64,000 nucleotides of DNA from Chamaelirium japonicum (Eukaryota > Streptophyta > Magnoliopsida > Liliales > Melanthiaceae), in assembly GCA_947650365.1 (NCBI GenBank), contig CANTAL010000192.1:1-64000 (forward strand). The letters run 5' to 3'. The notes under the pieces were generated by a model. The model saw only the letters and a list, made by a program, of their open reading frames with translations. It ran no database searches and was not told where the DNA came from. The position numbers were made by a program, and so were the translations under genes. How positions within the stretch are numbered: position 1 is the first letter of the stretch; each line of letters begins with the position of its first letter. Below are positions 39,909 through 52,619 of this stretch, piece after piece.

Positions 39909-42900
39909 CTCCCCCTTGGATGACCACCATTTATCAATGATTGCCTCATTAAAACCTTTGATGGAAAAACCCAGTGGGAAAAATCCTATCAAAGGAAAAA
40001 GAGTACAATCTTAGTTCTTCAGGAATAAGTTCTTCAGGAACTATGGTGGGTGCGCATAATGCTGCCTCGTTAAAACCTTTGATGGAAAAACCCTGTGGGA
40101 AAAACCCTACCAAAGAAAAAAGAGTACAGCGCGCATAAATTTGCATCTTCAGGATGCCCTCCGCCTAACTATTACATTATCACTATTACATCTCTCCCCC
40201 TGATTATATCTCCTCCTGATTACATTATTACATCTCTCCCCCTGATTATATCTTCTCCTTATTACATCAATTTGTTTGGTGATTGAGCCATCGCAGTCCG
40301 ATGCCGTACACCATCTTCTGAAAAGTAGACTTGGGCAAGGCTTTGGTGAAAAGATCCGCAAGATTATCGCTTGACCGTACTTGCTTGACTTCAATCTCCC
40401 TTTTCTTCTGAAGTTCGTGGGTGTAGAAAAACTTTGGTGAGATGTGCTTTGTTCGATCTCCCTTGATGAAGCCAGCTTGAATTTGAGCAATACATGCGGT
40501 ATTATCTTCGTGGATAACTGTCGGCTCTTTGGTAACTGATGCCAACTGGCAACTGCTTCTGATATGCTGCACAAGTGACCTCAACCATACGCATTCTCTA
40601 CTTGCTTCATGCAGGGCTAATATTTCAGCATGGTTCGACGATGTAGCCACAAGTGTTTGTTTGGTCGATCTCCAAGAAATAGCTGCATTGTTATTCAAAA
40701 ATACATACCCTGTTTGGGATCGACCCTTATGGGGGTCAGAGAGAAAACCTGAATCTGCATAGCCAATCAAGTGAGGAGTACCACAAGAATAAAACAATCC
40801 TATATCAGTGGTTCCTCGCAAATATCTAAATATTTGCTTTATTCAATTCCAATGCCTAAGAGTCGGTTCTGAACTGTATCTAGCCAATAGATTAACAGAA
40901 AAACATATATCTGGTCTAGTACATTGAGCTAAATACAATAAAGCACCAATAGCACTTAAATACGGTTTTTCAGAACCAAGAATAGTTTCATGTTCCTCTT
41001 TAGGTCTAAATGGATCTTTATGAATATCAAGAGGTCTAACTACCATGGGAGTGCTTAGTGGGTGACATTTATCCATATTAAATTTCTTTAACAAATTTTC
41101 AGTATATAATGATTGATGTACTAAAATCCCACTAGAGTTACGCTCGATCTGCAGGCCGAGACAAAACTTAGTATCACCAAGTTCTTTTATTTCAAACTCC
41201 CTTTTTAGATAATCAGAAGTTTTCTTGAGCTCTTCAGGAGTCCCAATCAAGTTTATGTCATCCACATAAACTGCAATTATAGTAAATCCATTTTCTGATT
41301 TCTTTATAAAAACGCATGGGCATATGGGATCATTCTTATAACCTTCCCTAGACAAGTATTCACTAAGGCGATTGTACCACATCCTTCCGGATTGCTTCAG
41401 GCCGTACAATGCTCGTCTTAGTTTTATCGAGTGCGCACTCTTTGATGTTGCTTCAGGCAACTTGAATCCTTTTGGGACTTTTAATGTTGCTTCAGGCAAC
41501 TTGAATCCTTCTGGGATTTTCATATAAATATCTGCGTCTAGGTTCCCGTATAGATATGCCGTTACGACATCCATTAGTCTCATCTCTAGTTTTTCAGAAA
41601 CTGTGAGATTAATGAGATATCTAAATGTAACTATATCCATAATAGGGGAATAGGTCTCTTCATAATCAATTCCGGGTTTCTGCAGGAATCCCTGGGCTAC
41701 AAGCCTTGCCTTATATCTAGCGATTTCATTATTTTCATTTCTTTTCCTTACAAACACCCATTTGAAACCTACAGGGTTTACGTTATTTGGTGTTTGTACT
41801 ATAGGTCCAAATACTCCACGTTTCTTGAGAGATTCAAGTTCAGCTTGAATAACTTCTCTCCATTTTGGCCAATCAGTTCTATGTCGGCATTCATATATAC
41901 TACGTGGTTCATTATCTTCATCATCGCCCTTTGTTATTTCAGTAGCTACTTTGTATGCAAATATGTCATCGATGACTATTTCCTTTCGGTCCCAAATTTC
42001 ACCCCTCATATGGAATATTGAGCTCTCATTATTTGGTACCGGTACCTTATCCATAATCACTGCAGGGATCTCTTCAGGAGTTTGAGGAAAATTTGGCCGT
42101 TGGGAAATATTTTCTTCTGGAAAAATATGGTCCATAATCTCTTCTGGAGCATTATGACCAGGTTCTTCTAGAACCTTAACTTTTTCTGGAGTTTTAGGGC
42201 ATGATTTCTCATTCAACTTCCTCTTCCGGGGAACTGAATCTTTGGAACCTATAGGTCTGCCACGTTTCTGACATGCAGCAGTTTCATTAGTGGGAGTTGG
42301 AATATTAATTCTTGCAGGTACATTCTTGGCTGGAACAAATGACTTAGTTACATTAGTTGCATCATTAAAGGCATCAGGTAATTGATTTGCAATATCTTGC
42401 AAATGCAAAATCCTTTTTACTTCTACCTCACATTGGGGAGATCTAGGATCTAGATGAGACATAGTGGAAGTATTCCACGATAATTCACGCCGTTCTTCGG
42501 GAACAGGTCGTTGCCTAGAAACTTCTTTATCTCCCCCTAACGGCGGGAAGACTGTCTCATCGAAATGACAATCTGCAAATCTAGCAGTAAATAGATCACT
42601 TGTTAAGGGTTCTAAGAATCTTATGATTGAAGGTGAGTCAAAATCGATATAAATCCCCAATCTACGTTGGGGACCCATCTTAGATCTATTTGGAGGGGGA
42701 ATAGGGACATGTACAGTACATCCAAACTTTCTAAGATGAGAAATATTAGGCTGAATACCTGACACAAGTTGTGCAGGAGAAAAATTATGGTATGAAGTAG
42801 TCTGAGTCTAACAAGATTAGCAGTATGCAAGATAGCATGCCCTCATGCAAAAATTGGAAGTCTGGATTGTAAGAGTAATGGTCTAGCTATTAATTGCAAG

Positions 42901-43412
42901 CGCTTGATAAAAGCTTCAGCAAGGCCATTCTGGGTGTGGACATGGGGGACAGAATGTTCGACTTCTATTCCGATGGATGTGCAGAAGTCATTGAAGATTT
43001 TAGAAGAGAATTCAGCTGCATTATCCAATCGGATAGATTTGATAGGGTTATCAGGAAAACTAGCTCTAAGTTTGATAATCTGGGATAATAATCTAGCAAA
43101 TGCTAAATTTCTAGTGGAGAGTAGGCTCACGTATGACCATCTAGTAGATGCATCTATTAGGACTAGGGCTGTGCAAAAACCGACCCGGACCGTCTAACCG
43201 AACCGAAACCGATCATAATTTAACCGAAAAAACCGACCCGAATATTAAACCGAACCAAAACGGAACCGAACCGACTAAACCGATTAATTCGGTTTCGGGT
43301 TCGGATCCCGGGTACGGAAAACCAAACCGAAACCGAAATACCCGACCCGACTCTGTATAGTGTATATTAGTATTTAGTAATATTACCGCGTGAGTGCGTG
43401 ACTGCGTGTTAT

Positions 43413-43419
43413 TATAAAA
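43413..43419 (+). promoter_or_regulatory. Candidate TATA box of the hAT transposase transcript
   Basis: TATAAAA preceded by a GC-rich segment and followed after about 30 bases by a CT-rich, initiator-like stretch (CCTTCTCTCAG). It lies upstream of the RPS13-derived exons and inside the left end of the hAT element. Prediction by motif only. Confidence 0.45.
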
Positions 43420-43995
43420 GACCCGAGCGAGCGCCGCACCTCCTTCTCTCAGTTTTCTGAGTCCTCGGCCCAAAACCCTAGCGGTGCTTCGGAGTCCTTC
43501 GGACTCGACGCGACGGCGACACCTCCTCGGCGCGACGGCGACACCTCCTCGGCTCGAAGGTGATTCGAAGTCTCGGACCCGCATCTCCTCCTCGACGCGA
43601 CGGCGACGGCCTATTCTGTGGCTTATCGGCTGACGGCGACGGCCGACGCCCGACGGTGACGGCCCTAAATCCGAGCAGCTCCTCCTCCTCGCCGACAGCG
43701 ACGGCCAATGCCCTAAGTCTCGGACCCGCATCTCCTCCTCCTCGCCAACAGCGACGGCCCTAAATCTGAGCAGCATCTCCTCCTCGGCGGCGTCGGCACC
43801 TCCTCCAGCCTCTCTGTCCTCTAAGCCCTCTCTGACCTCTGGCTTGGCCCTCCCCTTACACTCTCACAGGCTCACAGCCTCAGCCCTCAGGCTCTGCCCT
43901 CTGCAGTTTGGACCTCTGCCTCTGGTGCGTTACTACGTTCCCTTCCCTTCCCTCCCCGGCTGGCGAGTGGCGGCTGCATCCTGATTCCCCTCCTC

Positions 43996-44252
43996 AAGGC
44001 TCAGGTCAAGGGCGTCACCGGAAAGGCGAAAACAAGATCCTGCGCATCCTCAAGGCTTACGGTAACGGTATTATCCATTCTCTCTCTCTCTCGAAAGGTC
44101 ATTTTTGTGTTTCTGAATCTCTGAATCTCTGATGGTTTAACTTTGTACTTTTGTAGGGCTGAGGCTGAGGGCTGATCCTAGTGGAGAGCAGGATCCACCG
44201 CCTCTCTCGCTACTACTAGAGGACCAAGAAGCTCCCTCCCGTCTGGAAATAG
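43996..44252 (+). pseudogene. RPS13 (40S ribosomal protein S13, uS15) fragments captured in the hAT
   Basis: Positions 43996-44061 encode AQVKGVTG and, after a small insertion, NKILRILKAYG, then a GT donor. After an intron ending in TTTGTAG at 44156, about 44173-44250 encodes LILVESRIHRLSRYY, a stop, then RTKKLPPVWK. Both blocks match cytosolic RPS13 (AQVKSVTGNKILRILKAHG and LILVESRIHRLARYYK). The central part of the protein is missing. A donor (ATA|GTGAGC at 44253) and an acceptor just before the transposase ATG indicate that these pieces serve as 5' leader exons of the transposase transcript. The presence of introns points to capture at the DNA level. Confidence 0.85.
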
Positions 44253-44785
44253 TGAGCAACCCTCTATTTTTCTGCTTCTTTGATTGCTGAATGAGTGAAT
44301 GCATTATGTTTGGTTGATTATTATACTTTCTTTAAACTAATTAAATTCTGCCCTTCGATCACCTGCATGGTTGGCACGTCTGCTATTAGATTTACACATG
44401 ATTAGTTTAGATTTATCCAATTTGAAGTTGAGAGTTTACTTATGAACGACATAACAATTTTTTTTTTTTTTGAGGATCATCACCTCCCAATTGATAGCAC
44501 ATACATAATTTTTCAGATATTGATTTAGTATTAATCCATAAAGCAAGCTTCATCGATTATTGGGTGATGCTTGTTGAGATTCTTGGGACTGTGATTTGTG
44601 AATGTGTAGCTAGTTAGAAATTTGCTACGCGATACCGAATTGAAAAATGAGATTTGCAACTTGGAGTTGCATTTTATTATTTATTTAACTACTTGAAATC
44701 TTGATTGGATATTTTGCTTTCTTGCAACAAGTATGGTATCCAATTTCTGATTTTTACTAATTTTGATTTTTATTTTAATTTGTAG

Positions 44786-46897
44786 ATGGAGCATGACATC
44801 AATACTCTTCAGGCTAGTACTCCTCCTAGTAGTCATGGTGAAAATATCACACCCGCAAATACTTACACAAGTGGCACTTCCTCCAATCCCACACCAATTG
44901 AACTTCGTGATGATGAAGTTGTTGAATCATTGGAGAAGGGGGAGAAGGGAGCTAAGAGGAGAAAGGCTGAAATTTGGAACCACTTCATAGTGAATGATAT
45001 TGGTGACGTTGCCTCTTGTAAGTATTGCAAATCTGAAATTAAGTGTCATTCCAAAAAAAATGGAACTACTAGTTTACATAATCATTTTGGTTGTTGCAAG
45101 AAAAATCCAAATAAAGGAGATCCAAAGCAAAAAATATTATCTTTTGAAGGCAAGAAGGGTGATGGGTGTAATCTTGTAGCTATTGGGTTTAGCAAAGAGG
45201 CTTGTAGGGATGCCTTGGCTAAGATGGTGATTCTAGATGAGTTACCGTTTAGATTTGTTGAAGGAGAAGGGTTCCGTCAGTTTTGCAGTGTGGCTGTTCC
45301 TAGGTTAGAGCTTCCATCTCGTTTTACAATTTCAAGAAATGTGTGGAGTCTTGTTCAAGATGAGAAAAAGAAGTTGAAAAGTGCACTAGTCAACCATTGC
45401 CAAAGGGTTTGCCTTACCACTGACACATGGACCTCTTTGCAAAACATCAATTACATGGCTCTCACAGCCCACTTTATTGACAATGAATGGAAGTTGCAAA
45501 AGAGGATCCTTAATTTTGCTCAAGTGGTTAATCACAAGGGGGAAACAATGGCTAAAGAAATTGATCGTTGCTTGCGTGAGTGGGGTATTAAAAAAGTATT
45601 CACAATTACAGTTGATAATGCTAGCTCAAATGATGTAGGAGTTGGGTTGTTGAGGAAGAAGCTTGTAAAAGAGGGTCGTTGTGTGTTGAGTGGGGAATTC
45701 CTACATATGAGGTGTTGTGCTCATATAATAAATCTAATAGTGAATGATGGATTAAAAGATCTCCATAATTCAATTCAAAGTATACGCAATGCTGTTAGAT
45801 ATGTAAGATCTTCTCCTAGTAGGTTGACAAGATTTAAAACTTGTGCAAAAGAGGAGCTTATTGAATGTAAGGCAGGGCTAATCTTGGATGTGCCTACTAG
45901 ATGGAATTCCACCTACTTGATGTTGGATTTTGCACTGAAGTATGAAGAAGCTTTTGAAAGAATGACAATTGAAGATCTTGACTATCAAGCTCACTTTGGA
46001 GAGGATGAGGGTGGGAAGAGAAGAATGGGACCACCCAAGTTTCATGATTGGGAGAATGCTAAAGTGTTTGTACAATTTTTGAAGTCCTTCTATGATGTCA
46101 CTGTTAAAGTTAGTGGGTCTAAGTATGTCACTTCAAATTCTTATTTTGCAGAACTTTGTAAAATGCAAGTCAAATTAACTCACTGGTCTCAACAGGAAGA
46201 TGCTTTGTTGAAAAGAATGGCTTTGAGTATGAAAGCAAAATATGATAAGTATTGGGGCTCACTTGATAAGATCAATAAGTTATTGTTTGTTGCAGTTGTG
46301 CTTGATCCTAGGTACAAACTTGAGTACATCATATGGAATTTTAAAAAGATATATGAAGATCATATTGCAGATATGATGACAAAGGGGGTGAGGGACACTG
46401 CGATGCAATTATTTCTGTTTTATAGTATGAGTGACCCTAATCAAGAATCGAATGTTGGAGATTCAAGAGATGAGATTATGAAAGAGAGTGAAAGTGCTTT
46501 TGATGATGCTTATGATTTTGAGTTTGAATGTTTAAAAGATGAGCAAGATGTATTGAAAAACAAAAATGAGCTTGACAGATATTTGGTAGAGCCTAAAGAG
46601 AAAAGCGTACGTGACTTTGATGTCTTGGCTTGGTGGAAAGCAAATATCCCCAGATATCAGATTTTGTCTCAGATAGCACGAGATGTATTAGCCGTTCCAA
46701 TTTCTACTGTAGCTTCTGAATCGGCATTTAGCACTGGAGGTCGTATTCTTGATCCCTTTCGCAGTTCATTGGGTCCTAAGATGGTGGAGGCATTGATATG
46801 TGGACAGAATTGGCTTCGATCTTCACATCTACCGCTTGATCTTCCACCACAAGTGGAGGAAGCTGTTGAAGACCCAGATTTAGATAATTATAAATGA
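44786..46897 (+). CDS. hAT transposase, intact 703-residue frame
   Basis: A single exon with its ATG directly after the acceptor TTTGTAG. Residues about 62-103 form a BED zinc finger (W64, C78-x2-C81, H98, H100). Residues about 205-420 form the RNase H-like core with LTTDTWTS (D213), FTITVDNASSND (D277), CCAHIINLIV and the conserved DVPTRWNSTYLML (W373). Near the C-terminus, STVASESAFSTGGRI (E645, likely third acidic residue) lies in the hAT dimerisation domain with LDRYLVEP and WWKANIPRYQILSQIARDVL. It resembles RICESLEEPER-like plant hAT proteins, which cut and paste DNA with 8-bp target duplications. Such proteins are sometimes domesticated, but the flanking terminal repeats and target duplication show this is still inside a transposon. 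No stop or frameshift, so possibly active. Confidence 0.93.
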   Translation: MEHDINTLQASTPPSSHGENITPANTYTSGTSSNPTPIELRDDEVVESLEKGEKGAKRRKAEIWNHFIVNDIGDVASCKYCKSEIKCHSKKNGTTSLHNHFGCCKKNPNKGDPKQKILSFEGKKGDGCNLVAIGFSKEACRDALAKMVILDELPFRFVEGEGFRQFCSVAVPRLELPSRFTISRNVWSLVQDEKKKLKSALVNHCQRVCLTTDTWTSLQNINYMALTAHFIDNEWKLQKRILNFAQVVNHKGETMAKEIDRCLREWGIKKVFTITVDNASSNDVGVGLLRKKLVKEGRCVLSGEFLHMRCCAHIINLIVNDGLKDLHNSIQSIRNAVRYVRSSPSRLTRFKTCAKEELIECKAGLILDVPTRWNSTYLMLDFALKYEEAFERMTIEDLDYQAHFGEDEGGKRRMGPPKFHDWENAKVFVQFLKSFYDVTVKVSGSKYVTSNSYFAELCKMQVKLTHWSQQEDALLKRMALSMKAKYDKYWGSLDKINKLLFVAVVLDPRYKLEYIIWNFKKIYEDHIADMMTKGVRDTAMQLFLFYSMSDPNQESNVGDSRDEIMKESESAFDDAYDFEFECLKDEQDVLKNKNELDRYLVEPKEKSVRDFDVLAWWKANIPRYQILSQIARDVLAVPISTVASESAFSTGGRILDPFRSSLGPKMVEALICGQNWLRSSHLPLDLPPQVEEAVEDPDLDNYK

Positions 46898-47875
46898 ATA
46901 TGTATTTTATTACTATGCAATGTGCATTATTGGATTTTGAGTTTGTATGTGAACACTAAATGTTTCTGATATTATTTTTATGTTCATTCCTTCAGAAACT
47001 TCTATTTCAGAGAATGCAGACTAAAGTGTTTTTTGGTACTTGGTATGGTCTTTACTCTTTAGTTTTATTAATTTTTCCTTGCTAATTGCATTAAGGGTAT
47101 TTGCTTCTTATGGTTAAGATAATGCTTACTGGTGTGTTTGCTCTCACTTTAGGAACTACAGGAATTAATGTTGGATTTAGCTTTATTGGACGTGACTTTT
47201 ATAATGCACTTGCTAGTAAGTTCAATGCTTTATTCGAAAAATGATGTCCATCATCCAATATTACTGTCTAACATATTCCGCTCTTGTTATATATATATAA
47301 ATGATAACAGTGGCTTACTGGAGCGAACCATAGGGACTGGAGTTGATTTAGATGGCTCGACTGGATGGTGGACATGGTAGATAGGAAGGCGGCAGTTTGG
47401 CCGTAAAATACTAAAATAATTTGCTCATCTTAGTTGTTTGTCTTGTTTTCTCGCTTATTGATTGAAACTTGAAAGTGATGATATGTTTTTTGTTGTTTAT
47501 GTTCTAAATTCTAGGAACCCTATAACATTCTAATTTTTATCATATTCTGAAGTTTCAAATGTGCTTGTATTTGTGATTACAACTGCATGTAGTTGTAGTG
47601 GTGGAATCGGAACTGTTGTAGTTTGGATGCATTTTTTTATTTGTGAGGTCGGATGCAATTTTTTATGTGCTCAGGACCTCAGGTGGAGGTGCTTTACTGC
47701 TTTGTGTTTATACTGTTTGATACTTTGATTTCCATTCACAGTTTTCCACTTCACAGTTCACAGGTATTCCCTACTCATCTATATGCTGGTTCTATAGATT
47801 GATAATTGGCTCCTCTCTACCCACTCACCAACAGAGAGGGCCTGTGTGACGGTTCCCGCTATTGTTTGCCCACAG

Positions 47876-47953
47876 ATTCGTATACACAGGCTCTATCAGA
47901 TCATCAAGGACCGCGGCCCCTTCACCGTCTCCAACACCTGGAACCACGCCAAG
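47876..47953 (+). pseudogene. Captured host exon, family not identified
   Basis: A 78-nt exon between CCCACAG and GTAAAC encodes 26 residues, RIHRLYQIIKDRGPFTVSNT followed by WNHAK. The codon-like composition (GC-rich, no stops) differs from the AT-rich surroundings. It reads like an exon of a conserved plant nuclear gene, but I cannot name it. It lies about 1 kb downstream of the transposase. Confidence 0.55.
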
Positions 47954-48710
47954 GTAAACTCGACCCCCAAACACAACATTTACTTTCGAATCTATTTGGT
48001 GGTAGGTTTTAGTAACCGAGCTTATTCATGGGTCATTCAGGAAGGTGTTTGATGAAATGCTTGTGAAGCTCTTGTTTCGAATCTTGTTTTTGTTGACTGA
48101 TGAAAAACTCTTCCTCCTCATTGTAGTCCCATCAGGCTGATTTTTCTTCAGACCCTTTTTAAAAACATATTGTTGCTTGAGAGAAAGAGTCTGAGCTTCT
48201 TGCATATGTAGTTGATAGGCCGGCCAGTTATCTCATCACTTGATGTTATAGATAAATCAGTTCTCCAAATCGTTAAGTTTGTTCATCATGCATCAAAGAA
48301 CATTCCTATTGCTGATGGATATTAGTCCTTAGAATAGTTTGCCCCAAGATCACGTTGGAATTGAGCTATGTCTGCACTCTGCATTTTCTCATGCTAAGAT
48401 GCATAGAAAATTTCACACGTTACACCACCATCTGAAACTGAAGAAGAAAAATAACCTCAGGATTTGTTTTGGACTTTGTTTACTTGCCTTACCACCAATT
48501 GTTTTGGACCAAATACTGTGGATTAATAAAGGCAACCAAGAAATGGCATTATGGCATGCTGATTGTCATTTTGTATGGCAAACAATTTCTAGATGTGCAT
48601 GTTTTTTCATTACATTGTATACTGTCATGGATACTATATGCCACAAAGTTATTTTGTTTGTGTTCTTTGCTAGACAAGCATTGACTAGATTGGCTTGTTA
48701 GCCTTGTTCT

Positions 48711-48872
48711 TTGTTTTCACTGCCCAAGCCTCATGCTGCCTCACATGGACCAAGGGATGAGACTCCTTTTTATTCAGGTGGAGCTGTCCCTGATTATTTG
48801 GAACAAAAACGAATTCAGAAAATTTTGCTACTTGGACCTCAAGGATCTGAAACAAGCACCATGTTTAAGCAG
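48711..48872 (+). pseudogene. Captured exon of an extra-large G protein (XLG)
   Basis: Encodes GGAVPDYLEQKRIQKILLLG then PQGSETSTMFKQ, followed by a GT donor at 48873. It matches the start of the G-alpha-like domain of plant XLG proteins, around the P-loop GxxGxGTSTIFKQ. The P-loop has E where G is expected. Only this exon is present. It carries the original exon/intron border, so it came from genomic DNA. Confidence 0.8.
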
Positions 48873-49002
48873 GTAAGACCATATGTCTTCTTACAGAGTT
48901 CACTTTAGGTTTAGTAGATGAACAGAATCAAGAAGCAATTGTAAATTGGAAGTTGATGTTTCTCATTGTTTTTCATTGTTTATCTACTCTGCACTCTGCA
49001 GG

Positions 49003-49330
49003 CTAAGAAAGCTCTCCGGGCTCTCAAAGCACTACGACTGCTGGAACTTCCCGGACGGCAGACTATGACTGGTGCATCGCCGGCGACAGCAAGTATCGTT
49101 TCTCCAGCACCGCGCAGAGCACCCCCCGCTACATGAATTCCGTTCCCAACCCGCCCGCGACTCCGGCGAAGAGCGTCAGCGCATCCGAGGGGATCTTCCG
49201 GAGGTTCCTGAACACACCCAACTACCCGGACTACATGAGTACATGGCGAGCACGCAGTCGTTTGTGGCGAAGGTGCGGTCTCAGAGCACGCCGAGGCAGA
49301 GGCCGGAGCCATCTGGCTATTATATGTTTG
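49003..49330 (+). pseudogene. Captured piece of an IQD (IQ67-domain) protein gene
   Basis: AKKALRALKALRLLE at 49003-49047 resembles the IQ67 region (KALRALKALVRLQ). It is followed in shifted frames by YDWCIAGDSKYRFSSTAQST, PRYMNSVPNPPATPAKSVSA, GIFRRFLNTPNYPDYMS and SQSTPRQRPE, the conserved C-terminal order of plant IQD calmodulin-binding, microtubule-associated proteins. An internal stretch between the IQ region and the C-terminus is missing. GC-rich relative to the element. Confidence 0.78.
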
Positions 49331-49554
49331 GTGGTTGTAAAGGTTAGTAAGGTGGTGAAGCTCCCAAATAATTTATCTGTAGCCTATTGTGCCATCAAAC
49401 AGCTTGTGGCCTCTTTCAGTCAGGATCTTGTTCTGTGATTTTTTTTGCACAGTAATGGCTGTAGTAGTGGCAATGTTTATGATTAAGTTTCTATTGAAGC
49501 AGGGACTATATTATCTTTATCAGGTTTAGTTTTGAATTCCTGATTTCCTGATGC

Positions 49555-49690
49555 TTTGATCTGATGTCGGCTGCTGGCGAGTTTTTTGCCCAGTTTTGAA
49601 TTCCTGATTAAGTTTTTTGCCCAGTTTTGAATTCCTGATGCTTTGCCCAGTTTTGAATTCCTGATTAAGTTTTTTGCCCAGTTTTTTAGT
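49555..49690. repeat. Short tandem repeat in the hAT right arm
   Basis: About four imperfect units containing GCCCAGTTTTGAATTCCTGA with spacers AAGTTTTTT or TGCTTT, unit length about 24-36 bp. It lies between the IQD fragment and the CCGAAACCG subterminal array. Confidence 0.75.
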
Positions 49691-52619
49691 CACTTTAGTG
49701 AGGACTCAGAGGGGGGAAGGAAGGGATATAGGGGGTTGTAAAGGTCTATAGGATGGCAGGTGACAGGACCCAATGGAAACAACACGCAATCCAGCTAGCT
49801 CTCTATCGAATGAATGGGCGTAGGAGAGGGGATTCAAACCGAAACCGAACCGAAAACCGATCACACCGAACCGACAAAAACCGACTATTTCGGTTTCGGT
49901 TTCGGTTTTGTTTTTTTGAAAACCGAAAAAAAAAAAAACCGACAAAACCGAAACCGAAACCGACCGACAAAACCGACGCTCACCCCTAATTAGGACCATA
50001 AAATATCTAAATGGACCACTAGGAGGGTGTATAGAACCACAGATATCACCTTGAACCCTCTGCAGGAAGGTAGGTGATTCTGTCTCTATTTTCTTAAAAA
50101 AAGGTCTAGTGATTAACTTCCCTTGGGAACAAGGGTCACAAAAACGGTCATTTGGAAAAGTCAAACTACGATTGTTAAGAGGATGACCATAGGAATTGTA
50201 AATGATCTTTCTAAGCATACCTGACCCTGGGTGACCTAATCTATCATGCCAAAGGACCAAATCTTCAGGATTTGGGAACTTCTGGTTCAAGTGGGTGGCA
50301 TAGGACTCCATAACCCCAATGTGGGTAAAGTATAACCCTAAAGATAGGGTTGAGTATTTTTCTAGTATTGAAATATGCTCTCCGTTTTTAGATGTGATGC
50401 AGAGGTATTCTAGATTGCCTTCATTTGTAGTTTCTAAATGATATCCATTTGCTCGGATGTCTTTGAAACTCAATAAATTTCTTCTGGAATTTTCTGAGTA
50501 TAGAGCATCCTTAATTAGCAAATGAGTACCATTAGGTAAAAGTATATGGGCTCTTCTGGACCCTGTAACTATGTCAGTAGGGCCAGCCACTGTAGTAACC
50601 ATACGTGAATTATATTCAATATTTGTAAAGAATTTTCTGTGTTTCAGTATGGTATGTGTTGTTGCACTATCTATCAGGCAAATCTCTTTGCAGTTGGTCA
50701 TCGTTCCTAAATGATAAGTTATGAGTCAATAAATACCATAAGAGAAGTATCAATGATAAAACTTACTAACACAATTTCTAAGTAAAATCACCAGAACGAT
50801 AATATAAATTGATAATATCCAATAGAATATAAAAATTACTCAACAATGTCTGACAGAATAAAAACTACTGAGTAATGTCTGACTGGAAATAAAAACTACT
50901 TAGCAATGTTTGACAGGAAATAAAGACTACTTAGCAATGTCTGACGGAATAAATAAAAGAAAAACTAAAGTCTTCAGAGATCTCAAGATTCAGGGATTTA
51001 ATGTGCCATCGTCTAACTCATCAAAGTAGTCTAAACTGTCCAGGTACGATGTCTTCAGGGCATCGGTCTGTTTGTGGTAATCTTCAGGCCACTCATTGTT
51101 ATCTTCATTCAAATTTGTCTCTGCAGGTACCCTTGTACTTTTGTACTTATTCTTCTCATGTTTGCTAGCACGGCAGTTTCTGGACCAGTGTCCTTCCTTT
51201 CCACATTCAAAACATATGTCCCTTTTATCTTCAGGTTTAGAGGGATTATTCTTTTCTGAATTCTGAGGAGCGATCCACTTGTTTTTAAAGTGTGTGTCCT
51301 TCCTAGGACCATAATAATCATCTCTTCGAGGATGATTCTGACGTCCACCTCTTCCAGGGTGATTTCTACCTCTTCCAGGGTAGTTATTGCGCCCTCCTCT
51401 GCCGTGTCTTCCACCTCTCCTTCCTCTGCCTCTACCTTGGTAAAAATCATTGGCATTTGCTTCTGGCAATGCCAATGATCCAGTGGGTCTAGAATTATGA
51501 TTCTTTACCAGTAGGGTATTATGTTCTTCAACGATCAGGAGAACCTCTATGAGTTCCGAGTACTTCTGGTACTTCATCCCCCTGTATTGCTGTTGTAAAA
51601 TAATGTTATTTGGGTGAAAGGTAGAGAGTGTTTTATCGATCATCTGAGCATCATCTATTTTCTCCTCACAGAGTTTCAGCTTGCTGACGATGTTGAGTAA
51701 CTTCGAGTTGAACTCAGCCACAGTCTTGAAGTCCTGGAACCTAAGGGTGATCCATTCGCTCTTTGCTGCTGGCAAAGTGATCATCTTCTGGTGATCGTAG
51801 CGTTCCTTGAGTGCCTTCCAGAGATCTGCTGGATCTACTATGTTCATATATTCATTCTTTAGATCTTCGTGTATGTGGTGCCTAAGGAAGATGAGGGCTT
51901 TAGCTTTTTCATCCGGTTTCAATCCATTCTTCTCTTCTAGAGCTTTCTATAAGTTCTTCGCTTGTAGATGTAGCAAACTATCTACTCGCCAATTCAGAAA
52001 ATTGCTTCCATTGACATTTAATGCATGGAAGTCTAATTTTGTAATGTTCGACATCTGAAGATTTAATGAATATTAACATTAATTACTATGATGACCATAT
52101 TCAACATGTGAGTATGTAGAGACATATTATAGAAAACAATTTGACATATCAAGTACAAAGCCTATTAATACTGGGTATTAATAGGGTCCTTTAGAAACCA
52201 CTTGCCAAGGTAGAGCGGGTTCTATGGAACCGTCATGCGCCTTGCCAAGCTTTTCTAAAAGGTTCTAATTACCAAAAGTACATTTAAAGAAGAAAATAAC
52301 AACTTATGCACATGGAATATGTAAAGAAACACAAGATATAAGTGCATCGTAAAGTCTGTTACAATTAAGGACAATTTAGTCCTTATTTGTAAAGCAGATA
52401 TTACATATTGGTCCCTTAGGGGCTAAATAGTTAAATATATAAACAATGTATATGAAATAGCAAAATCTGACCGTACCGATGATTCCGGAACGGTTCGGAT
52501 ACCCAAAATCCATATATGGATCGAATAATTTGGCTATAGATCGGGCTTACAAAAGAGTATTTAAATGAACGGTGTATATCAAAATAGGCAATCAAATATA
52601 TGTGAGTGCATATAAGAAT

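Follow-up and report, generated by a model that had tools for sequence, protein, structure and literature searches.

Structure of the element and its transposase

The window, the whole stretch of 64,000 nucleotides of Chamaelirium japonicum DNA analysed here, lies on a 564-kb contig (C204) of an assembly of 1.52 Gb in 3,253 contigs. It harbors a complete hAT transposon of 6,816 bp, positions 43165–49980, in which pieces of host genes lie beside an intact transposase frame. This arrangement, proposed in a preliminary description of the window, is confirmed by the ends, the reading frame and the alignments to donor genes. The target-site duplication (TSD) of 8 bp, ATTAGGAC, is exact on both sides (43157–43164 and 49981–49988), as had been claimed; the element had been placed at the right locus with its start at 43164, which is the last base of the TSD. 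The left terminal inverted repeat (TIR), TAGGGCTGTGC, occupies 43165–43175 on the plus strand and is followed by an AACCG-rich subterminal region. The right TIR, TAGGGGTGAGC when read inward, occupies 49970–49980 on the minus strand, and an AACCG-rich subterminal region precedes it. The two TIRs are 11 bp long with mismatches at 2 of the 11 positions, in agreement with the matched ends noticed earlier. Twenty-four of the 25 plus-strand AACCG motifs fall within the outer 250 bp of the ends, 12 in the first 250 bp and 12 in the last. Short TIRs starting with TA/CA-GGG, plus subterminal repeats, are a hallmark of hAT elements. The window element thus has the 8-bp TSD, the short TIRs with subterminal repeats and the transposase domains of the hAT superfamily.

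The transposase is encoded by an open reading frame (ORF) of 703 residues at 44786–46897 on the plus strand, uninterrupted as described before. It matches the Pfam domains hAT-like_RNase-H and Dimer_Tnp_hAT with E values of 2.5e-29 and 2.9e-29. No Pfam match to a BED-type zinc finger was found in the transposase at E values up to 1; Pfam does not detect such an N-terminal finger in all hAT proteins. A candidate 3′ splice site, TTGTAG (44780–44785), stands immediately before the transposase ATG.

Captured host gene pieces

Parts of the element were used as DNA queries against the plant's genome to find the donors, and the donor loci lie outside the hAT family. The window copy contains pieces of five unlinked genes, RPS13, mL80, XLG, IQD and an MCTP-type gene, with introns retained. 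The pieces are 73–364 bp long, are about 90–97% identical to their donors and keep several exon borders; together the aligned pieces account for roughly 30% of the element (about 2.0 kb). At these lengths and identities the matches are far beyond chance, and the host genes encountered are presumably those of a flowering plant. The preliminary description had counted at least four host genes, and four are present as it said, but the sources number five, the MCTP-type 3′ untranslated region (UTR) having been overlooked. Its RPS13, XLG and IQD fragments with exon borders were borne out by donors elsewhere in the genome with introns and matching borders, and the further exon that it left without a name is present and was identified as mL80 through a Protein Data Bank (PDB) match of the donor exon.

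RPS13 contributes three main pieces, at 43999–44091, 44170–44285 and 44309–44426 on the plus strand, with the donor at C7:58.09 Mb (contig and position). The donor exon matches Pfam Ribosomal_S15 (9.5e-14), and the exon border AAATA|GTGAGC is preserved in the element at 44251/44252. Capture of the RPS13 promoter is unsupported; the main donor match begins at donor position 461, which is within the second exon of RPS13. The element upstream of the RPS13 match shows no significant match to the donor stretch, the comparison reaching 79 bp before the donor ATG.

The mL80 segment (47889–48465, plus strand) consists of three collinear pieces of part of exon 1 and intron from C8:57.02 Mb, the exon ending at 47953 in the element. 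A PDB search with the donor exon hits plant mitoribosomal protein At1g73940/mL80 (3.2e-13 and 1e-11). The mL80 segment is followed by two collinear pieces at 48465–48964 on the plus strand, an intron-exon-intron segment with its exon at 48778–48872, from C6:40.13 Mb. The G-alpha Pfam match is 1.8e-4 in the donor frame and 0.011 in the window exon, both under the curated score, and we take the gene to be one for an extra-large G-alpha-like protein (XLG). The IQD segment (48961–49310, plus strand) comprises an intron end with an exon start at 48961–49033 and part of a later exon at 49035–49310, with donor-like loci at C10:3.90 and 3.59 Mb. It has a DUF4005 match (1e-9), and the source is presumably an IQD gene. 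The piece at 49035–49310 contains insertions of 7 and 8 bp (15 gap positions in total), which are absent from the copy on C140. Of the two, the 8-bp insertion resembles the pattern of a hAT excision footprint.

The last segment, 49311–49581 on the plus strand, is a 3′ UTR that begins 6 bp past the stop codon of an MCTP-type gene at C6:15.52 Mb; the donor gene has C2 (2.2e-21) and PRT_C (1.5e-82) domains. Several near-repeats of a captured segment of this UTR are seen in window positions 49560–49690, and 49623–49648 matches donor positions 1714–1739 a second time.

The element is bordered by minus-strand ORFs that by reading resemble Ty1/copia pol, at 40843–43130 and 49706–50701. Since they stand on either side, the hAT element reads like an insertion within a Ty1/copia-type retrotransposon.

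Form of the pieces and their junctions

The pieces of one donor are collinear and separated by forward skips. In donor-locus coordinates, mL80 is represented by 404–500, 631–739 and 1501–1857, XLG by 1051–1236 and 1501–1811, and IQD by 912–984 and 1501–1761. At the window junctions some neighboring pieces have 1, 4 or 16 bp in common, and others abut or are separated by 1–5 unmatched bp. The copies at C6:48.1 and C5:75.9 Mb (the C6/C5 pair) have overlaps of 6 and 7 bp between three donor pieces. The 1.24-kb cargo of the C140 copy consists of four collinear pieces of C4:39.369–39.371 Mb at 98–100% identity. Two of their joins overlap, by 11 and 8 bp, and the remaining one leaves a gap of 1 bp. 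All these overlaps are raw lengths given without a chance expectation. Collinear pieces, forward skips and short overlaps fit template-switching break repair. Capture from mRNA is ruled out by the introns retained in the RPS13, mL80, XLG and IQD pieces; these are DNA copies.

No single fusion frame spans the whole cargo: in the window copy the exons of XLG and IQD would be joined with their native frames kept, but the join of mL80 to XLG does not keep the native frame. The alignments across the window-cargo junctions reveal no fragment that is a later insertion with duplications of its own, an outcome that had been considered in advance.

Copies of the family

The genome contains relatives that have the same ends, some carrying the fragments and some lacking them, which is the support that the preliminary description had asked for. 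Forty of 1,485 first-look candidates were scored, and the copy counts are lower bounds. Eighteen transposase-bearing copies were compared: the window copy, L009 (C1:127.7 Mb), L010 (C140), L014–L025, L028, and the copies on C10 and at C3:78.67 Mb, the last two assembled from adjacent stretches. An exact 8-bp TSD is present in ten of the 18, and seven of the eight bases agree in L017. At least one end is missing from the stretches compared in L018, L022, L024, L025 and L028.

The C1 copy is nearly identical to the window element and carries the same cargo, yet its TSD, TCTGGCAT, is different; it is therefore a separate insertion of the same chimera. This second near-full copy with the same ends and cargo also rules out that the outer ends of the window element come from two elements.

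Some copies are rearranged. In the C10 copy (L011–L013, C10:35.66–35.69 Mb) the left end is present twice, the first 1.6 kb is repeated and 13.5 kb of other sequence lies inside, yet the outer TSD, TTAAGTGG, is exact. L025 (C8:60.877–60.887 Mb) has two right ends 3.3 kb apart, each followed by the same flank, CCCACCAATTCA, which suggests a local tandem duplication. Such duplicated ends are what might be expected if two neighboring elements used alternative outer ends and so enclosed host DNA, as proposed for Pack-CACTA; an enclosure route is described in the accessible text on Pack-TYPE elements (PMC8903248, PMC13317346). That it made the window cargo is highly improbable, the cargo being short, skipping pieces of four unlinked loci and not one stretch between two elements. 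Element ends with a remnant of the RPS13 exon, and with no transposase in the stretch examined, were seen in L054 (C11:43.787 Mb) and L055 (C90:1.202 Mb), which are possibly non-autonomous derivatives.

The full 703-residue frame is present in three of the 18 copies, those of the window, C1 and C140, and the same three carry pieces from all five host genes. The window and C1 transposases are 99.3% identical. Ratios of nonsynonymous to synonymous substitution (dN/dS) are 0.20–0.34 in five comparisons among the window, C1, C140 and C6:48.1 Mb (L015) copies, figures that come from small counts without a significance test (window and C1 differ by 6 synonymous and 8 nonsynonymous changes). The C140 copy gives 0.15 against L023 and 0.23 against L020. 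Values are 0.49–0.63 against C10, L014 and L017, and 0.46–0.65 in comparisons with L018, L022 and L024.

The window copy could be a dead relic moved by another family member, its intact frame a chance survival in a young copy. Fifteen of the 18 copies do lack a full-length frame, and little decay is expected between two copies as close as those of the window and C1. We consider this rather unlikely: the three copies with full frames group together, and their dN/dS toward each other and toward the C6:48.1 Mb copy is low.

Order of capture

Within the stretches compared, RPS13 pieces occur in ten of the 18 copies. The diverged L018 and L022 are among them, and in these two the match continues through introns. 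An eleventh RPS13-bearing element is at C1:81.43 Mb, a part of the element of L028 outside the compared stretch. MCTP is found in 9, IQD in 8, mL80 in 7 and XLG in 3 of the 18, the XLG count leaving aside hits of its locus on simple repeats in other copies. A pattern scan found the left edge of RPS13 in common in seven copies, that of mL80 in six and both XLG junctions in three. A join of mL80 2897 to IQD 813 was missed by the scan on account of its 14-bp overlap; the alignments show it in C10, L023 and L025, at identical donor positions. The IQD-MCTP junction exists in two forms, 1761|1501 in the window, C1, C140 and C10 copies and 1369|1564 in L015, L016, L023 and L025.

XLG is confined to the window, C1 and C140 copies, where it lies between mL80 1857 and IQD 912. 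At this place the mL80 and IQD stretches of C10, L023 and L025 extend further, and therefore XLG replaced the inner part of an older cargo. Host DNA was captured serially and in part replaced. By the shared junctions the capture was stepwise, with RPS13 looking oldest, then mL80-IQD-MCTP, and then XLG in the window lineage; the RPS13 piece, which occupies what would be the transposase leader, looks older than the cargo downstream. Divergence from the donors, counting mismatches only, is 7–11% for RPS13 and 2–6% for the others, figures that are rough as dates because donor exons are conserved, and that leave out alignments shorter than 40 bp, the XLG matches in other copies and MCTP matches of C3 outside cargo.

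In an unrooted tree the window and C1 copies group with a bootstrap of 99. Adding C140 gives 100, and the group that also takes in C10 and the C6/C5 pair has 99. L018, L022, L024 and L028 are split from the rest at 92, and the intermediate nodes have values of 35–79. The C6/C5 pair joins a transposase of the window type to the IQD-MCTP junction of the other lineage. An alternative leader free of RPS13 is common to L019, L020, L021, L023 and the C3:78.67 Mb copy; a gene source was sought for the leader of these five, and none was identified.

Helitrons have a 5′ TC and a 3′ CTRR end. By reading, the edges of the window cargo show no TC start and no CTRR end, the cargo differs between copies with different edges in the same slot, and XLG lies inside the older mL80-IQD stretch. 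It is thus hardly credible that a Helitron nested in the hAT element built the collage, even though Helitrons often carry several host fragments and gain them stepwise, as far as the available account tells (PMC3288121).

Other cargo in the same slot

The slot between the transposase and the right end holds different gene fragments in different copies. The C6:48.1 and C5:75.9 Mb copies carry guanosine deaminase (PDB 6.5e-29), an unnamed piece and enoyl-ACP reductase (7.1e-14). The C3:78.67 Mb copy has a piece of a thioredoxin-domain PDI-like gene (1.1e-8), 98% identical to its donor at C2:5.91 Mb, and a further piece whose source lies at C8:59.35 Mb. The C3:77.2 Mb copy has a SYF1 fragment (6.6e-9) within a part that matches C11:26.35 Mb at 89%; a BTB-like reading of the first part of this cargo was weak (best PDB E value 0.28) and was rejected. 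About 110 bp separate an RRM-coding exon (Pfam 5e-5) from the source of the C140 cargo, which begins downstream of it on the same strand. Two collinear pieces at C1:107.01 Mb match the module common to L019 and L021, and the cargo of L020 (C3:64.5 Mb) matches at least ten places, at 76–91% identity, in a 0.44-Mb cluster (C5:24.85–25.29 Mb), a gene or repeat family of local extent. Pfam scans in six frames found no convincing gene in the cargo of C140 and of the C3:64.5, C2:106.6 and C12:33.3 Mb copies, and the scans made of the L019/L021, L020 and L022 modules gave no gene identity.

All nine fragments identified in databases by a hit on the fragment or on its donor (RPS13, mL80, XLG, IQD, MCTP, guanosine deaminase, enoyl-ACP reductase, PDI-like and SYF1) are in sense orientation to the transposase (two-sided sign test 0.004, post hoc and with captures treated as independent). 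The count is small, and modules without a gene match could alter it. The L020 module has long reverse-strand open frames, of 67–69 codons; one reverse-strand ORF of its cargo has no PDB match, and antisense capture is possible there. A role for the orientation can be imagined, in which the family is autonomous, keeps a permanent slot for cargo and has its captured parts serve the element: the RPS13 exon and intron donor would give the transposase a spliced 5′ leader, and the downstream exons and 3′ UTRs would make a readable, terminating transcription unit. We hold this to be unlikely.

Mechanism of capture

The family is, in all likelihood, a recently active, probably autonomous cut-and-paste hAT family that gained host DNA through template-switching break repair and end joining. 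A break would arise inside the element, some of the breaks perhaps through excision. Repair, presumably synthesis-dependent, would copy short stretches of unlinked host genes with forward skips and template switches, end joining would close the break, and the altered element would then transpose. The transposase is probably active. The element may be mobile, a reading strengthened by the exact TSDs in ten of the 18 copies and by the low dN/dS among the long-frame copies.

Several observations weigh against this mechanism. L010 (C140) and L015 (C6:48.1 Mb) have both ends and no matching TSD, the dN/dS between C10 and C140 is 0.53, and the other dN/dS values and the junction overlaps have the limits given above. 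In the C6/C5 pair, copies seem to have exchanged parts, or one IQD-MCTP junction arose twice, so the history is probably no simple tree.

The cargo may instead have been made by transposition-independent repair of breaks in resident copies, transposition merely spreading the product. The available text on animal Pack-TIRs favors such gap filling as the origin of single-copy elements (PMC8277862), and the youngest-looking capture, that of C140, is in one copy only, which lacks a matching TSD. The XLG and mL80-IQD-MCTP chimeras are present at several sites with exact TSDs and therefore moved too. We regard this alternative as possible and as the less probable account.

Relation to known systems

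The preliminary description had said that gene capture is less often described for hAT elements, above all beside an intact transposase. This overstated the novelty, as the accessible account of a grapevine family reported in 2008 makes clear (PMC2528002). That family, Hatvine-6, is the closest precedent: by this account it has 17 copies with potentially functional ORFs and a "variable" size, and its members have the transposase and TIRs in common while the remainder is often unique and similar to genic introns and exons. Compared by description, its TIR of 13 and TSD of 9 bp differ from the 11 and 8 found here, and the text available gives no donor-by-donor order of capture and no replacement (PMC2528002). 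Maize Ds2 and Ds-l4 also have hAT ends, captured intron-bearing fragments and a donor on another chromosome, but they are described, in the part available, as non-autonomous with one or few fragments per element (PMC3260210).

Host DNA between hAT ends is likewise known from Pack-hAT elements of the Pack-TYPE class (PMC8903248) and from animal Pack-TIRs, of which 208 of 370 are on hAT and which, in the text at hand, also feature microhomology at breakpoints and gap filling (PMC8277862). Pack-TYPE elements are defined there as lacking a functional transposase (PMC8903248); the present element has host fragments between its ends and also keeps the full 703-residue frame beside them. Maize Helitrons are similar in sequential capture, loss of inner sequence and putative autonomous cargo-bearing copies, for instance ZmhelA1 with eight predicted gene fragments, but from the available account they belong to another transposon class, without TIRs or TSDs (PMC3288121). 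A literature search with most subscription papers outside its scope, and so weak evidence of absence, found no report of a hAT family that replaces its cargo step by step and none of a sense bias in hAT cargo.

A gene-capturing hAT element with an intact frame is therefore of a known kind, and the evidence for its donors and the order of events is unusually complete. The family offers a readable natural record in which donors, event order and junctions can be traced, with one capture still 98–100% identical to its source. This makes it possible to test how the repair works, whether captures favor the sense strand and how cargo affects transposition, and the annotation of this genome may be counting such chimeras as genes.

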